A DNA stretch of 64,000 nucleotides from Porticoccaceae bacterium (GCA_029248755.1 JAQWIR010000020.1:1-64000); one strand, 5' to 3'. Positions 39,077 through 47,221 are shown, counted from the stretch's first letter. Notes: generated by a model from the letters alone, not told the origin. Numbers and translations: made by a program.

Positions 39077-39682
39077 TTACTCGATTACTTGTGCTTTAGG
39101 TGAAGAGGAGGAGACGTCGGTATTTACTTCGGGAAAATACTGTTCAATATAGAAGATAATATCTGATGCACTTGATCGACTTGCATCTGTTGCCACTACT
39201 CCCTCAGTAAGAGAGTTACCAGTAAGACCAAATAAATATCTAAGTATTAGCAAGGCATCACTATTTGCATCAATTTTGCTATTGCCATCAATATCAAATA
39301 TTGATTCAGCCGCTTGTAATTCAGCCTCTATCTGCGTTGGGTCAAGAGGCGAAGAAGTTGCTATAGCGCCATCAGTTAATTTATTGCCAGTTAGGCCAGA
39401 TATATACCTGAATATTAATAACCCATCAGTTAAAGCATCTACATTACCATCATTATCTATATCAAAGTCTATGGGGCTTTTATGCAAGCTAGTTGTGGAT
39501 CCACTGGGCAAAATTTTTGCGTCAGCACTTTCAGTTTTGTTTGAAAAGGTCGGAGATCAACGAACTTCTAGATTGGGATCTAGGGCATACCCACTAAAAC
39601 TATAGACTACACATATTAGCAGGCATGATTTTTTCAAATAATGTGAAAACTTTATACATGTCTTCAAAGGGGGATAAACCAT
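39077..39682 (-). pseudogene. Small dockerin-like two-repeat secreted protein gene interrupted by an in-frame TGA
   Basis: From ATG 39682, same frame: MVYPPLKTCIKFSHYLKKSCLLICVVYSFSGYALDPNLEVR-stop(TGA 39559..39557)-SPTFSNKTESADAKILPSGSTTSLHKSPIDFDIDNDG..., continuing into the 144-aa ORF-track protein. Confidence 0.7.
39120..39466 (-). repeat. Dockerin-like two-repeat module (copy 1)
   Basis: FDIDNDGNVDALTDGLLIFRYISGLTG / IFDIDGNSKIDANSDALLILRYLFGLTG. Confidence 0.8.
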
Positions 39683-39956
39683 GTTGGATATGCTCTTCGT
39701 CTAATACCTATTAATTTAAGTCATCTAGGTTATTCATAAAATTCATTAGAACAAAGATGACAACATCATTAATATATTAGACCAATTTTCCAAGATTTCT
39801 CCATGAATCCTTTCTTTATAATCTTTAGCTTTACATTTGCTTGCACGATTACAGTGGAAAGTTTTGAAGTGGCAAGGCAACCAACAAGATTTCATAGTGA
39901 TGTTGTTACCAACATCACTGATTCTTAATATCAATATATTCTTTTAATTTGCAAAT

Positions 39957-42900
39957 TTAATTCTCAATAGGAACAAATATTGCTTGAATACTGGCATCCT
40001 GACTCGTGGTCAATACAGCGTTACTGTCAGCTTGATTTACAGCACCTTGCCAGCTTGAAAACTCATAGCCTTCATTTGGAACAGCGGTTAAAGAAACCGG
40101 TATAAAGTCGAAATATTCACCTTCCCAGCTTGAGCTATTTAAAGTCAAAGAATTCAATTGAACTGACCCAGCATCCGTGTTGTTGATACTCACAGTAAGG
40201 TTATACATGCCATTTATTCCAAAATTACTACGAACATGTCCGGCTAGGGAAGGCGATCTGTTATCAGTAAAGTCTCTGATCTTGTCTACTTCGTTTTGCC
40301 ATTCAGAATAAGAAGACAGCATATATTGATTTTGCCAATAGGGTGATCGATTATTCCAGTTACTCCAATGTTCGAAATGTCGGGTAATTTCAGAACTAAT
40401 GGTATCAGTAATGCCGCTTATGTGGGCTTGCAAATTGCTTGCCTTAAAGCGACCATTCATTTCATCGGCAAATTGATTGATGAATTTATTCTTAAACTGA
40501 GTGTTTTCGATTAATTTTCTCATGAGTAAGGTAGACCAAGGGGGGTTTGGCCAGCCAGGTCCATTAGCACTTAAAGCAAACGATAAAGTATCATTTTCAT
40601 AAAAAGGCGGATTTTGCCAAGGGCGGCCAAAGGCAAAGTCAGTATCATATAAAACCCAGCGCCACTTAGTTTCTGGAGAGTTCCAGAATTTAATGTTATT
40701 ACCAGGCCAATCCGTATTATCTAGATAAATTTGCGCAACTTGATAGGTGATTATATTATCAATATCAATCTGGCTGGCTACATAATCGTAATTTGACTGA
40801 ACAGATAAGCTGTTATTTGTTACATAATCAATTAGCTCGTTATAAGACGTATTACTACCCTCAACAACCTCACCATTATTTGTAAGCAAATTGATTTCAC
40901 TTTTGTCTACATTAATCTTATCGTCAAGGAAATGCTCGTTTACTTTTTCGCGAATATTGTAAAAGCCCCAGTATTGTCCATTAAGGTAAACCACAGCTGT
41001 ACGATGGGCTTGATATTCAAGTCCACTACCTTCCATGAGACTAGTGGCTATTACATCTTTAATATTGGTTTTCATCCAGTCATTACCTGAGCTTCGCAAA
41101 ACAATAGATTCAAATTTATCGTAGTCCAAAGAAGGAAAAATTGGATATTTTAACTTGCTAAAACCATAGCGTCCGCGAGCAAAAATAGACATAGATCGCT
41201 GATCATTAGCTCTACTCCAAGCGCCAAATATTTTAACCCCCGCATCAATTGCAACGCCCAGTTCACCTGATGGCTCATAAAAGCTAAAGTGTACATCACG
41301 CTCCCAATCCTGCCAAAAATTCGCACCAAAAAAGGGAAGATTATTTTCATAGTTTTCCGCGGGGCCGTACTCATAAATTCCTTGCTGTTGATCAAAAAAG
41401 TTATAGGGCTCGGAGATTAAAGAAACTATGGGTAAATCATGGGTATTAGAGGTGATATAAGTTCTACTATCCGTTCGGGAGGGAATATAGTTAGTTTTAA
41501 ATATTTTGGCACGAATAACAGTATCCTGACTAATAACAATAGGTGAGTTATAAACATTTGATATTAAGTTCGGAATTGTAGCGTCAAGTGTGTAACGAAT
41601 TTCTTCGCCTTCAGCGGCACCACTCAAAATAACACTTTGTTCGTTAAATTCACCACCCTGATGCGAGAACACAACTTCACTTTCAATTGCCCCTAGAAAG
41701 CCTATGCTGGGGTTTTGCTCGCCAGGCGTTGGATTCTCAAAATACAATATGCTGCCATCTACAGGTGAACGACCCATGCTATTGTCGTTTTCCATAGCAG
41801 TCACGTTCATGTAGTCGACTTGACCGCCATTAAGATCAAATAATGTAAGCTCTTCACCATCTGAAGATATTTTAAAATTTGTATGAAGGCTCGGGTCTTC
41901 AAATCCTAAGATAGTAGGTGGTGATTGGCCATCATTAGTTGAACCTAAGTAAAATGCTGATAAAAATGGTATTAAAGTCATATCAGAAGAGTTTGCATTG
42001 GCATTGTGAACCTGAATGCTTAATATATTTTCACCCTCATTCAGTAATGCTTGTACATCGTTAATAGGGAATCTAACAGGACTGCCACTTTGCCACATTG
42101 TAGCTTCACGATCGGTAATTGTGTAAGTATTAAAACTCGGCCTATCACCTAGTATGTTGGAGCGTGCAATTTCAACACCATTAATATAGGCCACAAACCC
42201 ATCATCAAAGTCGATGTCTAACCAGAGTTTGTCCATTAATTCTAAATCGGCTACTGTGAAAGTTTTTCTTACATATACAGAGCTTGTGCCATTTGGAATT
42301 ATAGTCGAATCATCACCATCAGCATATCCAAAGCCACTAGTGCCTTGTAGCCAGCTACTATCATTGAAGCTTTGGTTGATCCATGAATTACTTGGATTTG
42401 ATGAGGGGATTAGATATCGGAAATTATCACCTTCATTAACAAGCGTTCTATATGTTCCGCCAGCTGTTTTATCTTTGTTTGATGCCCAAATACGCATATA
42501 CGAACCTGGTGCTAATAACGTCTGCGGGAAAACCCACTTATTTGGTTCTAAACTGTCATCAGTTATAGTCCAGCCAGTAAGATCGACAATTGTGTCACCA
42601 TTATTAAATAGCTCTATCCAATCTGGGCTATCGCCATCCTCATCATCAAAAGACGAATTTGACGATGACACTTCATTAATAACTACAGTATTAGGTATTC
42701 CACCAGAATTAGCACCCGGCATATTATCAATTAAATATTGAGTAATGGCTGGAGCAGATGATCTTGAAGCATTATTTGCAACAGCACCATCTATGAGTGG
42801 ATTACCCCTAATACCGAATAGATAGCGCAGAATAATTAAACCGTCTGTCAACGCATCAAATTGACCATTATTGTCAATATCAATAATGGCTTCCATATCA

Positions 42901-43253
42901 TTCATTTGGCTGCCAATTTCAGCAGATGAAAGGATTGCATCACTTGCAATTGCGCCTTGTGTAAGCGCATCACCTCTTATTCCAAATCCATATCTCAAAA
43001 TTAATAGGCCATCAGTTAATGCATCCGCTTTACCGTCTTTATCAATATCCCAGTCAAGAGCATGACCTAATGTGCCAGTGATGGACTGAGACCTCATTGT
43101 TTTAGACGCATTAAAAGATAATTCACTAGGAGAATTTTCATTATAAATATTAATAGAGTTTTCGGCTGATTCTTTGTCTGAGTTGCAGCCAGCCAAGCCA
43201 ATTAAAGCAAGTGACAACGTAAATAAACCAGTTATTTTATTGTTGCTGAACAT
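39957..43253 (-). CDS. Secreted lipoprotein: dockerin-like repeats, lamin-tail domain, chitobiase-like domain, CotH kinase-like domain, InlB-like C-terminal repeat
   Basis: Lipobox ALIGLAGCNSD; VINEVSSSNSSFDDEDGDSPDWIELFNNGD (LTD); GEEIRYTLDATIPN (CHB_HEX_C-like); AGVKIFGAWSRANDQRSMSIFAR (CotH); C-terminal GYEFSSWQGAVNQ...ASIQAIF. Start refined to MFSNNK, preceded by AAAGAGG. Confidence 0.85.
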   Translation of the reverse strand: MFSNNKITGLFTLSLALIGLAGCNSDKESAENSINIYNENSPSELSFNASKTMRSQSITGTLGHALDWDIDKDGKADALTDGLLILRYGFGIRGDALTQGAIASDAILSSAEIGSQMNDMEAIIDIDNNGQFDALTDGLIILRYLFGIRGNPLIDGAVANNASRSSAPAITQYLIDNMPGANSGGIPNTVVINEVSSSNSSFDDEDGDSPDWIELFNNGDTIVDLTGWTITDDSLEPNKWVFPQTLLAPGSYMRIWASNKDKTAGGTYRTLVNEGDNFRYLIPSSNPSNSWINQSFNDSSWLQGTSGFGYADGDDSTIIPNGTSSVYVRKTFTVADLELMDKLWLDIDFDDGFVAYINGVEIARSNILGDRPSFNTYTITDREATMWQSGSPVRFPINDVQALLNEGENILSIQVHNANANSSDMTLIPFLSAFYLGSTNDGQSPPTILGFEDPSLHTNFKISSDGEELTLFDLNGGQVDYMNVTAMENDNSMGRSPVDGSILYFENPTPGEQNPSIGFLGAIESEVVFSHQGGEFNEQSVILSGAAEGEEIRYTLDATIPNLISNVYNSPIVISQDTVIRAKIFKTNYIPSRTDSRTYITSNTHDLPIVSLISEPYNFFDQQQGIYEYGPAENYENNLPFFGANFWQDWERDVHFSFYEPSGELGVAIDAGVKIFGAWSRANDQRSMSIFARGRYGFSKLKYPIFPSLDYDKFESIVLRSSGNDWMKTNIKDVIATSLMEGSGLEYQAHRTAVVYLNGQYWGFYNIREKVNEHFLDDKINVDKSEINLLTNNGEVVEGSNTSYNELIDYVTNNSLSVQSNYDYVASQIDIDNIITYQVAQIYLDNTDWPGNNIKFWNSPETKWRWVLYDTDFAFGRPWQNPPFYENDTLSFALSANGPGWPNPPWSTLLMRKLIENTQFKNKFINQFADEMNGRFKASNLQAHISGITDTISSEITRHFEHWSNWNNRSPYWQNQYMLSSYSEWQNEVDKIRDFTDNRSPSLAGHVRSNFGINGMYNLTVSINNTDAGSVQLNSLTLNSSSWEGEYFDFIPVSLTAVPNEGYEFSSWQGAVNQADSNAVLTTSQDASIQAIFVPIEN
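42714..43052 (-). repeat. Dockerin-like two-repeat module (copy 2)
   Basis: WDIDKDGKADALTDGLLILRYGFGIRG / IIDIDNNGQFDALTDGLIILRYLFGIRG. Confidence 0.85.
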
Positions 43254-43492
43254 GAAAACCTCTTTTTGATATTTTTTTGGTGTTTTATGCATGTTAAATT
43301 ATTTTGCCCAAAAAAATAAACCTTTATTTTATTGATAGCTACTAATATTTGACTGATTGGTCAATTAAACAACAAAATGCTTAAATTCTCTGTGTTTACT
43401 TCTCAGGCATATATCTAACTCCCCATAATTAGAGTGATACAAAAAGAGTGAGATATCGTAAATTCTAGTTATAAATATATAAGGTATCTGTT

Positions 43493-43759
43493 TTGTCAGA
43501 CAAACAAACTTTTTTTTCACAAGAAGCTTTATCTCGTATTATTGAAATGGCCTGGGAGGATAGAACTCCCTTTGAGGCCATTGAGTACAATTATGGTATT
43601 AATGAATCTGCTGTAATCAAGTTGATGCGCGCACAAGTCAAGCCAAGGTCATTCAGGCTTTGGAGAAAAAGAGTTACCAATCGTTACACAAAACATGTTT
43701 CGAAAAGATCTCCCGATGTTATCAGAGGTTACTGCCCGACTCAGTACAAGAATAGATAG
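43493..43759 (+). CDS. TIGR03643/DUF2805 family protein
   Basis: IIEMAWEDRTPFEAIEYNYGINESAVIKLMRAQVKPRSFRLWRKRV; TTG start. Confidence 0.85.
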   Translation: MSDKQTFFSQEALSRIIEMAWEDRTPFEAIEYNYGINESAVIKLMRAQVKPRSFRLWRKRVTNRYTKHVSKRSPDVIRGYCPTQYKNR

Positions 43760-43769
43760 GAATCTTCTT

Positions 43770-44321
43770 ATGCCAAAGATCTTACGGTTTCACTTTTTTT
43801 TACTTAGCTTTTATATGATTGATGTCGGAGCTGAACCAATGATAATTGACGACTTTACTTCAAATGATCAGCCACAATGGAATTATGTAAGCGACCAGGT
43901 AATGGGTGGTATTTCTGAAGGTATCTTAGTTTTTAGAACTGATAAAGAAGAGTCTTATGCTCAACTTACTGGCGAAGTGAGTACCAAAAATAATGGGGGT
44001 TTTATCCAGTTTAGGCGAGATCTTATAATACCAGATACACAGGGTGTTCAGGGCATTTATGCCAAAGTCAAAGGTAACAATCAAAAGTATTTTATCCACA
44101 TACGCACCAGGGGCACCATTATGCCTTGGCAATATTATCAAAGTGAGTTTTTAGCTGGGGACAAATGGCAAAGTATTAAATTACCATTCAATAATTTTGT
44201 CGCGTCTAGTCAATGGATTAAAAAGGAACTTAGAGCTAAGGATGTGCGCAGTATAGGGGTTGTGGCCTTTGGACGGGACCACAAGGCTGATATAAATGTA
44301 TCAGAGATTGGATTTTTTTAA
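43770..44321 (+). CDS. CIA30-like (complex I intermediate-associated protein 30) domain protein, predicted exported
   Basis: MIIDDFTSNDQPQWNYVSDQVMGGISEG and C-terminal VRSIGVVAFGRDHKADINVSEIGFF; start refined to MPKILRFHFF. Confidence 0.82.
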   Translation: MPKILRFHFFLLSFYMIDVGAEPMIIDDFTSNDQPQWNYVSDQVMGGISEGILVFRTDKEESYAQLTGEVSTKNNGGFIQFRRDLIIPDTQGVQGIYAKVKGNNQKYFIHIRTRGTIMPWQYYQSEFLAGDKWQSIKLPFNNFVASSQWIKKELRAKDVRSIGVVAFGRDHKADINVSEIGFF

Positions 44322-44464
44322 CTAGTATTTAATTGTTTGATTAAATACTTCTCAATCATAGAAGGTTGGATAATATATCCTCTTTGACTTGCAATATTAG
44401 CCATGAGAAAAAAAAAGGCATATAGTTAATTAAATAATAAAATAATCATGATTTAACAGTCATC

Positions 44465-47221
44465 ATGTTAATTAGGGGTATTCCAATGTTACCAGTAAAT
44501 AAAATTATAAAATCCATTTTATCTCGAGCTCTACTAACGGTCAGTTTATTTGCTTTTAGTATCCCTCTACTAGCTGAAGATAGCACGATATACGTAAAGT
44601 TGAATACAAACCCATTTAGTTCCCCTTTCTATATTTTTTCCAATGAACCCAATGGTGAGTCCACAACAGTTTCCCTTGAAAAGGGATCTACATACACATT
44701 TATAAGAACAGATAGCGGTCATGCATTTAATATTGGCAATAGCTGGCGAGAAGCTAATACGCAGATTCAAGCTTCAAGTACCGGAAGCGGAGGTATGGTC
44801 GGCGAAGTAGCTTCAATTGTAGCTAATGAACAATTGACTATAACAATTCCGCTCAATTTTACTGGTGATCAATTATCCTATTTTTGTTATCCGCATTCAG
44901 TAATGATAGCTAGCTTTGATGTGGTAGAAAGACAGCAAGCAAGTTGGGATTTTGATGGAAGTGGGGATGTTGATGCTCTAACTGATGGCTTATTATTACT
45001 CCGATATACATTTGGATTGAGAGGTAACAATCTAACGAGCGGTGCGATGGCAACTAACTCTTCGCGTTCTTCTCTTCAAATTGAAGACTATATATCTTCT
45101 GGAGTATCTATTGCAGATATTGATTCTAACGGCCAGGTTGATGCATTAACCGATGGGCTACTATTATTGCGCTACCTTTTTGGCTTGCGTGGTTCTAACT
45201 TAGTGCTTGGCGCAGTATCGGTAGATGCCTCAAGAACTTCTAGCGATGAAGTTGAACAATATATTGCTTCGTTAATGCCCGAACAAATTTTAGCTCAAGC
45301 ATCCGGTTTACTGGTTCCAATGAAAAGTAGTCAAGAATTTACCTCGAAACTTACACAAAGCTACGATAGTGTATTTGGTGAAGTTGCTTCGGCAATTGCC
45401 CTTGATGCGGTCCCAGAAATGGCGATGGATTCTGCAGTTGAAGCCACTGGCGGAGAATCATTTACTACCACTTATACGTTAGAAAAAACGATTGATGAGC
45501 ATGATTTTGTAAAGTATGACGGCGATCATCTTTTTATAGCCCCTAGCTACAGCATGCATGATGATTGTTGTTTTATAATCAATGAGCCTGTAGCTATATT
45601 CGATGATGCTATAGAAGTGGACGAAGAATCCGTTGTTGCGGATGAACCTATCGTTGAAATTCCAGAGTTGCGTTCTATAAAAATCATGTCTACTGATTCT
45701 GATCAAGCCACAGCAGTGCAGGTAGGCAATATTATTGTTGATGAAAATAACACAATTGAAGGACTATACACCAATGATACTCAGTTAGCGGCCATAAATA
45801 GTTCTGGTTGGTGGGGAATGTATGGCGATGTGTTTATGTCACCAACTACATGGCGGGGACAAACCACAGGGCTTGATGTATACGACATTTCAAATACTTC
45901 TGACCCTGAAAAAATTTGGGACTTTGAAATAGAAGCTGGCTTTGTAACTAGTCGCAAAAAGGGTGATATTGTTTATTTAGTTGCTCGTCACACCCCCCAA
46001 ATTACCAACTATGTAGACAATCCTTCAGCCGAACAAAAAGCTGGCAATCAAGAGGCTATCGATGAAACAGCTGTTAATGATTTACTGCCTAAGGCTTACA
46101 TTAATGGTGAGCAAACAGATCTTCTAGCTGCTACCGACTGTCTAATGATTAATGAAGAGCATGATTTGGCACCCAATCAATATGGCTATCCAACTATGAC
46201 TCTTCTGGTTGCAATAGATGTAACGGAAAAAACAGTAGTCAATAGTTCCTGTTATTTAGAATCTACATCGGGCGTTTATGTAAGTCAAAATGCGATCTAT
46301 TTCATCCAGTCAGAAGGTTGGGGCTTAGATTCACGAACATTAATTCATAGATTTAATCTATCGGCGAATTTGGGATACAGCGGCTCAGGTCAAGTAAATG
46401 GTCATTTATTTGGTTCAGGTGAAATTGACTTTCGTATAAATGAACACGATGGCTTTCTAAGAGTAGTAAGTAGTCAATGGACAGGAGATTCAAACGATAA
46501 CAGAGACCATCAGTTAACTGTTCTAAAGCTTTCACCTTCCGATTATTCATTAACAGAGGTTGCGACATTACCAAATGAACAATATCCAAATGAGATTGGC
46601 AAGCCCAATGAAGATCTCTATGGTGTAAGATTTTTTGGTGACACACTTTATCTAGTGACATTTGAGCGCACAGATCCACTTTATGTCCTCGATCTTTCTG
46701 ATCAAGAAAATCCTATTATTGCGGGTGAGCTTGAGGTTACTGGATTTTCAGATTTTCTTCATCCAGTCAATGACGAATTGCTGTTAGGTTTAGGCCAAGA
46801 TGAAGATGGCTTAATTAAATTAGAGTTATTTAATGTTGAATCTATGGATAACCCAGTGTCTTTGTCTTCTTTAAGTGTTGGCCAAGGCTCAAGTTGGATC
46901 CATTCTCCTGCCCGATATAACCGACATGCCTTTACATATCAGCAGATCAATGAAACCCAAGATCGTTTCTCTGTTCCGGTTACATTATCCCAAACATCAA
47001 GCATGAGCTATTCACAAGAAAATCGACTATACATGTTTAACCTTACTAACAAAAATGATCCTGAGAGCGCTTCGATTGTTAGTAATGGCTACTTATCCGG
47101 CGGCACAAACGATTGGTGGAGCAATAACGATCGTCAGCGAGCTTTTTTCCATGACAACTCTGTTTTCTATATAAATGGTGAGAATGTTATTTCAGCGTTT
47201 TGGGAATTTCCGCAAGATTGA
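44465..47221 (+). CDS. Secreted multidomain protein: cupredoxin-like domain, dockerin-like repeats, beta-propeller domain (Beta_propel-like)
   Basis: Signal peptide; GHAFNIG...YFCYPHSVM; two DALTDGLLLLRY repeats; TIDEHDFVKYDGDHLFIAPS...SDQATAVQVGNIIVDE typical of Beta_propel. Confidence 0.82.
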   Translation: MLIRGIPMLPVNKIIKSILSRALLTVSLFAFSIPLLAEDSTIYVKLNTNPFSSPFYIFSNEPNGESTTVSLEKGSTYTFIRTDSGHAFNIGNSWREANTQIQASSTGSGGMVGEVASIVANEQLTITIPLNFTGDQLSYFCYPHSVMIASFDVVERQQASWDFDGSGDVDALTDGLLLLRYTFGLRGNNLTSGAMATNSSRSSLQIEDYISSGVSIADIDSNGQVDALTDGLLLLRYLFGLRGSNLVLGAVSVDASRTSSDEVEQYIASLMPEQILAQASGLLVPMKSSQEFTSKLTQSYDSVFGEVASAIALDAVPEMAMDSAVEATGGESFTTTYTLEKTIDEHDFVKYDGDHLFIAPSYSMHDDCCFIINEPVAIFDDAIEVDEESVVADEPIVEIPELRSIKIMSTDSDQATAVQVGNIIVDENNTIEGLYTNDTQLAAINSSGWWGMYGDVFMSPTTWRGQTTGLDVYDISNTSDPEKIWDFEIEAGFVTSRKKGDIVYLVARHTPQITNYVDNPSAEQKAGNQEAIDETAVNDLLPKAYINGEQTDLLAATDCLMINEEHDLAPNQYGYPTMTLLVAIDVTEKTVVNSSCYLESTSGVYVSQNAIYFIQSEGWGLDSRTLIHRFNLSANLGYSGSGQVNGHLFGSGEIDFRINEHDGFLRVVSSQWTGDSNDNRDHQLTVLKLSPSDYSLTEVATLPNEQYPNEIGKPNEDLYGVRFFGDTLYLVTFERTDPLYVLDLSDQENPIIAGELEVTGFSDFLHPVNDELLLGLGQDEDGLIKLELFNVESMDNPVSLSSLSVGQGSSWIHSPARYNRHAFTYQQINETQDRFSVPVTLSQTSSMSYSQENRLYMFNLTNKNDPESASIVSNGYLSGGTNDWWSNNDRQRAFFHDNSVFYINGENVISAFWEFPQD
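44945..45284 (+). repeat. Dockerin-like two-repeat module (copy 3)
   Basis: WDFDGSGDVDALTDGLLLLRYTFGLRG / IADIDSNGQVDALTDGLLLLRYLFGLRG. Confidence 0.85.

Follow-up and report, generated by a model that had tools for sequence, protein, structure and literature searches.

A module of two dockerin-like repeats, carried by three neighbouring genes within a 64,000-nucleotide stretch of a Porticoccaceae genome (hereafter the window), is predicted to be a dockerin-type docking tag that belongs to a surface-assembly system of the SAR92 clade, a reading to which we give a probability of roughly 0.6. The system is analogous to the classical cellulosomes and is not a member of them. The reading builds on the module itself, on its loop spacing, terminal placement and copy number, and on the identity of the cohesin domains, their co-occurrence with the tag and the architectures of their anchors.

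Results

The first-pass annotation had reported six dockerin-like units in three neighbouring proteins. A profile built from these units (A1) placed all six where it had put them, with a spacing of 56-58 aa. Each unit scores 100-106 bits, values which only locate the units as the profile was made from the same six sequences. Positions D1, D3, D9, A10 and D13 are invariant in 6/6 units, with the loop acids at positions 1, 3 and 13 in every one. Another 25 units were picked up by the same profile in other parts of the genome (E 1e-26 to 1e-17) and the pattern is therefore not due to chance. In all, 31 units are found in approximately 16 secreted proteins of the 1.65 Mb genome.

Gene 1 is listed as a pair-only protein of 144 aa with a TTG start (39077-39511, minus strand; ORF list), its units lying at 39305-39475 (102.5 bits) and 39131-39304 (100.6 bits) on the same strand. 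A closer inspection of the region upstream revealed an in-frame TGA (39557-39559, minus strand) between the module and a signal-peptide-like start (TTG AAA AAA ... LKKSCLLICVVYSFSGYALDPNLEVR; 39560-39637, minus strand). This start opens at the TTG at 39637, is in frame with the module and reads LKKSCLLICVVYSFSGYA, and the ORF as listed starts from a TTG just past the stop. With a signal-peptide-like start upstream of an in-frame TGA, this copy of gene 1 is probably broken, or else the sequence contains an error. Gene 2 (39957-43292, minus strand) encodes a lipoprotein-type CotH/LTD protein in which the pair (minus-strand units at 42891-43061, 103.3 bits, and 42717-42887, 105.5 bits) directly follows the lipoprotein signal (LIGLAGC) and is followed by LTD, CHB_HEX_C_1, CotH kinase and InlB-like repeat domains. 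Gene 3 (44465-47221, plus strand) encodes a beta-propeller protein, with a signal peptide, a short N-terminal domain that appears cupredoxin-like by eye, the pair (plus-strand units at 44939-45106, 105.6 bits, and 45110-45283, 101 bits) and a Beta_propel domain (PF09826). An untagged secreted protein with a CIA30 domain (PF08547, 92 bits) is encoded between genes 2 and 3 (43695-44321, plus strand).

Loop length was scored on 222 distinct units from this genome and its relatives, 220 of which were scorable. The last loop acid falls at position 13 in 215/220 units and at position 12, the canonical dockerin spacing, in 0/220, bearing out the claim that the last ligand comes one residue later than in a canonical dockerin (D13 rather than D12). 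The remaining five units were scored at position 15, which is probably a register ambiguity of the DxDxDxD type. Elsewhere in the loop, N, D or S occupies position 5, D is found at position 9 in 198/220 units and T or S at position 12 in 214/220; one further unit carries a longer loop insertion. A class-wide search found distant relatives of the pair in only 3/368 other genomes: one has 12-residue loops (G176, DVDGDGDADANDGLMIQRR), one has a loop of 12 and a loop of 13 residues (G332), and the readable loop of the third has 13 residues (G167). As distant relatives keep 12 residues, the 13-residue loop looks, from these few sequences, like a derived one-residue insertion.

The nearest solved chains in a sequence search of the PDB were dockerins (1ohz, E 0.13 and 0.027), in agreement with the initial description of a dockerin-like two-copy module, and the one-residue gap relative to 1ohz falls just before the helix acid. 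An AlphaFold model of the gene 3 pair, made with 74 natural sequences in the alignment, is confidently all-helical (pLDDT 95.5). Helices 15-26 and 71-82 come after the two loops, each beginning at position 10 of its loop; another helix precedes loop 2, and a matching helix lies at the very end. Two loop-helix repeats thus form a single domain, as in dockerins, an arrangement seen both in the model and in the near-universal occurrence of the units as pairs. The first loop has no preceding helix, and the pair departs from the canonical EF-hand of a 12-residue loop with E and F helices. Foldseek searches of the model gave nothing significant against the PDB, where the best dockerin (6kge_D) ranked 21st with a target-normalised TM of 0.43 and E 8.1, and a fold search of viral libraries was likewise without significant matches. 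The model thus shows the expected loop-helix units, but as a whole it matches no EF-hand or dockerin in the PDB significantly, which counts against a docking tag.

In Pfam, the best score in the window falls below the Dockerin_1 cut-off (gene 1, 19.8 bits against 22.9). A search of the whole genome for Dockerin_1 gave no match at E ≤ 0.001, the best reaching 17.8 bits, below the cut-off. Membership of the canonical family (PF00404) was therefore rejected on both score and loop length, since the bits are under threshold and the loop acid is not at position 12; the tag is dockerin-like by anatomy. A different dockerin family is present in one genus member that lacks the pair (G042), which carries canonical 12-residue Dockerin_1 repeats (YQMIAADVNKDGRVNSADALQILKIAVGL; L176 5372-7363 and 2-5017; L178 2751-8000).

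The tag was found in 32/50 genomes of the genus (SAR92 clade) with our genome included (31/49 of the others), and in 0/45 genomes from other genera of the family and order. Named tag-bearing genomes are nearly all assigned to the SAR92 clade or Porticoccaceae. Contigs bearing the tag also occur in bins labelled Microthrix, Burkholderiales, Euryarchaeota and Rhodospirillaceae (L077, L093, L115, L137), where SAR92 binning contamination is the probable source. In related genomes tagged proteins nearly always have exactly two units, with the pair near the N terminus in 57 cases, at the C terminus in 30 and internal in 8.

The hosts are diverse. Within our genome they include a GH16+CBM6+CotH protein, GH81, a GH128-like enzyme, a di-haem oxidoreductase, LRR_5 proteins, a peptidase-like lipoprotein and several proteins without known domains; across related genomes the pair accompanies 59 Pfam families, including GH3, GH128, S8 and M12 peptidases, CotH, LRR_5 and Beta_propel. 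This variety counts against a tag serving a single-purpose polysaccharide machine, and a purely laminarin-specific machine was rejected on the same grounds. Often the pair follows TSP3 repeats or other Ca2+-rich stalks.

Several further features of the tagged proteins were observed. A locus of three tagged genes, encoding a cohesin-tag protein, a tagged di-haem oxidoreductase and a GH16-cohesin-tag-CotH protein, is conserved between our genome (L022 4102-15070) and genome G036 (L194 5865-16382). A repeated domain of ~120 aa (EAFGGT...FPSGAEAWAGFAN...) with no Pfam match, possibly a carbohydrate-binding module, occurs in several tagged proteins (L022, L025, L026). Proteins with a single unit behind TSP3 repeats (L027 802-9030, L027 1-471, L028 81-575) have near-identical C-terminal ends, and two of them lie at contig edges; either these ends were duplicated recently or they form a repeat on which the assembly breaks.

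The first-pass annotation had recognised no cohesin-like partner. This is true of the window, where we also found none, but the genome holds about 11 cohesin-like domains, and the suggestion drawn from their absence, that the module may not serve a cellulosome-like assembly, is thus left unsupported. The domain concerned, of ~145 aa, sits directly before several C-terminal pairs. A copy from our genome scores 19.7 bits against Pfam Cohesin (PF00963), below the cut-off; among five sister genomes, eight copies pass it with up to 33.1 bits. Its AlphaFold model (pLDDT 92.5) has the cohesin jelly roll: nearly all of the top 31 Foldseek matches are cohesins (E 1e-7 to 1e-5), among them the cohesin-like modules 2jh2 and 2vo8 of Clostridium perfringens. 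The cohesin profile gave no matches to PDB sequences, the structural identification coming by fold. On the profile in sister genomes and on the fold, the domain is a cohesin.

Cohesins were found in 22 genomes of the genus and in none outside, the same limit as that of the tag. Among 47 genomes, tag and cohesin occur together in 21, the cohesin alone in 1, the tag alone in 10 and neither in 15 (Fisher p = 5e-5, with genomes treated as independent, so that kinship makes the p-value overstate the association). The sole cohesin-only genome has a cohesin interrupted by internal stops, and every genome whose cohesin is intact also has the tag (21/21). Four of the ten tag-only genomes (G003, G015, G025, G032) are explained by assembly breaks: each has a JDVT anchor whose N-terminal part falls in an N-gap or past the contig end. 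The other six, with 1-6 units each, yielded neither a cohesin nor a cut anchor, which counts against a docking tag. A broadened cohesin profile returned the same 22 genomes and no additions, so the missing cohesins are not a simple problem of sensitivity within the family.

Three cohesin architectures recur: fusions to the pair, lipoproteins and JDVT-CTERM proteins. The fusions include proteins in which two cohesins occur without any recognised catalytic domain (L021, L081, L094), in the order cohesin-cohesin-tag in L081 and L094. Tandem neighbours of the order cohesin-tag-cohesin are seen in L112, and one frame holds four cohesins (L146). In genomes of our type many cohesins stand directly beside the tag in one chain, separated by a linker of ~5 aa, so that a fused cohesin could be a structural unit instead of a partner, a further point against docking. 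Taken further, this arrangement might mean that the pair and its adjacent cohesin-fold domain form a dyad, comparable with an X-module and type II dockerin, which docks to an unrecognised third receptor. A cohesin-like domain does immediately precede 13/37 C-terminal pairs. However, most pairs have no such domain beside them and many cohesins are found on anchors without a pair, and we regard the dyad as very improbable.

Of the two anchor types, cohesin lipoproteins occur in our genome (C25) and in L142-L144. The C25 gene (L053 2859-5420) lies between Poly_export/SLBB and YjbH genes, as a cohesin lipoprotein gene apparently does in a sister genome (L191 4544-6778), and a link to exopolysaccharide export is possible. 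The JDVT anchors are proteins of ~800-1700 aa with a signal peptide and cohesin at the start and JDVT-CTERM at the end. Cohesin and JDVT-CTERM share one frame in 10 genomes; the protein of L150, for example, scores 31.8 bits against JDVT-CTERM (NF033191; cut-off 27). The gene for MrtJ, the protease of the JDVT system, adjoins the JDVT-CTERM gene in G032, G039 and G040 (94-97 bits, cut-off 75; L180 1058-1543, 1566-6719 and 7035-9884; L159; L166). In G032 the cohesin end of the JDVT-CTERM protein is lost at the contig end, and a tagged gene lies nearby in G039 and G040. Our own genome has no JDVT-CTERM match above cut-off.

These anchors bear on a second alternative, in which the pair would act as a signal for sorting or retention, much as a CTERM tag does, and be recognised by a surface glycan or by machinery for secretion or anchoring, the cohesins serving some other end. 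Its terminal place on many secreted proteins would suit such a signal, as would the setting of the C25 lipoprotein between genes for exopolysaccharide export (Poly_export, YjbH). CTERM tags, however, are strictly C-terminal and have a transmembrane segment and a basic tail, whereas the pair is a domain found at either end, and the true sorting tag, JDVT-CTERM, sits on the cohesin proteins instead. We consider a sorting signal improbable.

Somewhat less improbable, though still unlikely, is that the pair is a partnerless Ca2+-stabilised cap, a folding aid or spacer spread by domain shuffling, and that the cohesin-fold domains are ordinary Ig-like stalks. The diversity of hosts, the Ca2+-rich stalks before the pair, the frequent direct fusion to a cohesin domain and the lack of a dockerin fold match are all consistent with this. 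A mere spacer, on the other hand, would not be expected to occur in a near-constant two copies and mostly at a terminus, nor to co-occur throughout the genus with cohesins on surface anchors. We favour the docking tag.

Discussion

As a docking tag, the pair would act as follows. A helix follows each of its two DxDx[DN]GxxDALTDG loops, and together they would make up a single compact, all-helical domain of ~115 aa, probably folded around a pair of Ca2+ ions. Placed at one end of many secreted proteins, the domain would let them dock onto cohesins of the same cell. These cohesins would be held on outer-membrane-type lipoproteins in the subclade of our genome and, in much of the remaining genus, on JDVT-CTERM proteins sorted by MrtJ, with proteins that combine cohesin and tag in one chain as putative adaptors. 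Glucan hydrolases, proteases, CotH and repeat proteins may in this way be brought together in an assembly on the cell or outside it, and a small planktonic cell would benefit by keeping its enzymes at its surface. Parts of a cellulosome type are present, namely tagged enzymes, proteins with two cohesins and a tag, a frame of four cohesins and anchors; their assembly is putative. More tentatively, at somewhat less than even odds, SAR92 may possess surface-anchored assemblies of cellulosome type that include beta-1,3-glucan (laminarin) hydrolases. Their dockerins would form a derived family with loops of 13 residues and an unsolved fold, their cohesins would be anchored through lipoproteins or the MrtJ/JDVT-CTERM system, and proteins that join cohesin and tag would act as adaptors.

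With type I dockerins (PF00404) and the Clostridial cellulosome the tag shares tandem DxDx[DN]G loop-helix repeats and a D-x-LLL-x-RY helix motif, and the system shares a single terminal copy per enzyme and cohesins on anchors and adaptors. In contrast to type I dockerins, the SAR92 tag has its acid at 13 instead of 12, a period of ~57 aa and an extra helix behind each unit, lacks a significant fold match in the PDB and scores under the Pfam threshold in the window. Unlike in the Clostridial cellulosome, its hosts are mostly not cellulases and its anchors are Gram-negative. Cohesins and dockerins on secreted hydrolases are also known from the non-scaffold X82 and FIVAR-Doc enzymes of C. perfringens. 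Those enzymes are not known to have dedicated anchors, whereas SAR92 has both lipoprotein and JDVT-CTERM anchors.

Non-cellulosomal sets of dockerins and cohesins have been described in ANME archaea, where the dockerins are recognised by public domain libraries and the hosts include ABC-transporter and S-layer proteins (PMC9012536). As in SAR92, many dockerin and cohesin proteins occur there outside cellulose degraders, and some combine several cohesins with a dockerin, but those sets are archaeal (PMC9012536). The mucinolysome of Limousia, a member of the Firmicutes with mostly recognised dockerins, likewise applies a cellulosome-type architecture to another substrate and was likewise first inferred from genomes (PMC12997984); the same 2026 paper notes that no cellulosome system has been described outside Firmicutes. 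In beta- and gammaproteobacteria, MrtJ and a single JDVT-CTERM protein are known to be encoded by two neighbouring genes (PMC11980579). The SAR92 arrangement shares this adjacency (PMC11980579) and differs in that the protein sorted there often carries a cohesin, which seems to be unreported for SAR92 in the literature searched. Laminarin loci of SAR92 have been described and the clade is important in algal bloom turnover (PMC8371827). We found no paper naming both SAR92 and dockerin in a search that mostly excluded subscription journals.

Because the tag falls below the Pfam threshold, standard searches miss it. Here a marine gammaproteobacterial clade with small genomes joins tags, cohesins, adaptors and anchors. 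The SAR92 lineage may therefore build cellulosome-like surface assemblies, a kind described so far only in Firmicutes (PMC12997984). Moreover, the carriage of cohesins by JDVT-CTERM proteins hints at what the enigmatic MrtJ/JDVT-CTERM pair is for in SAR92.
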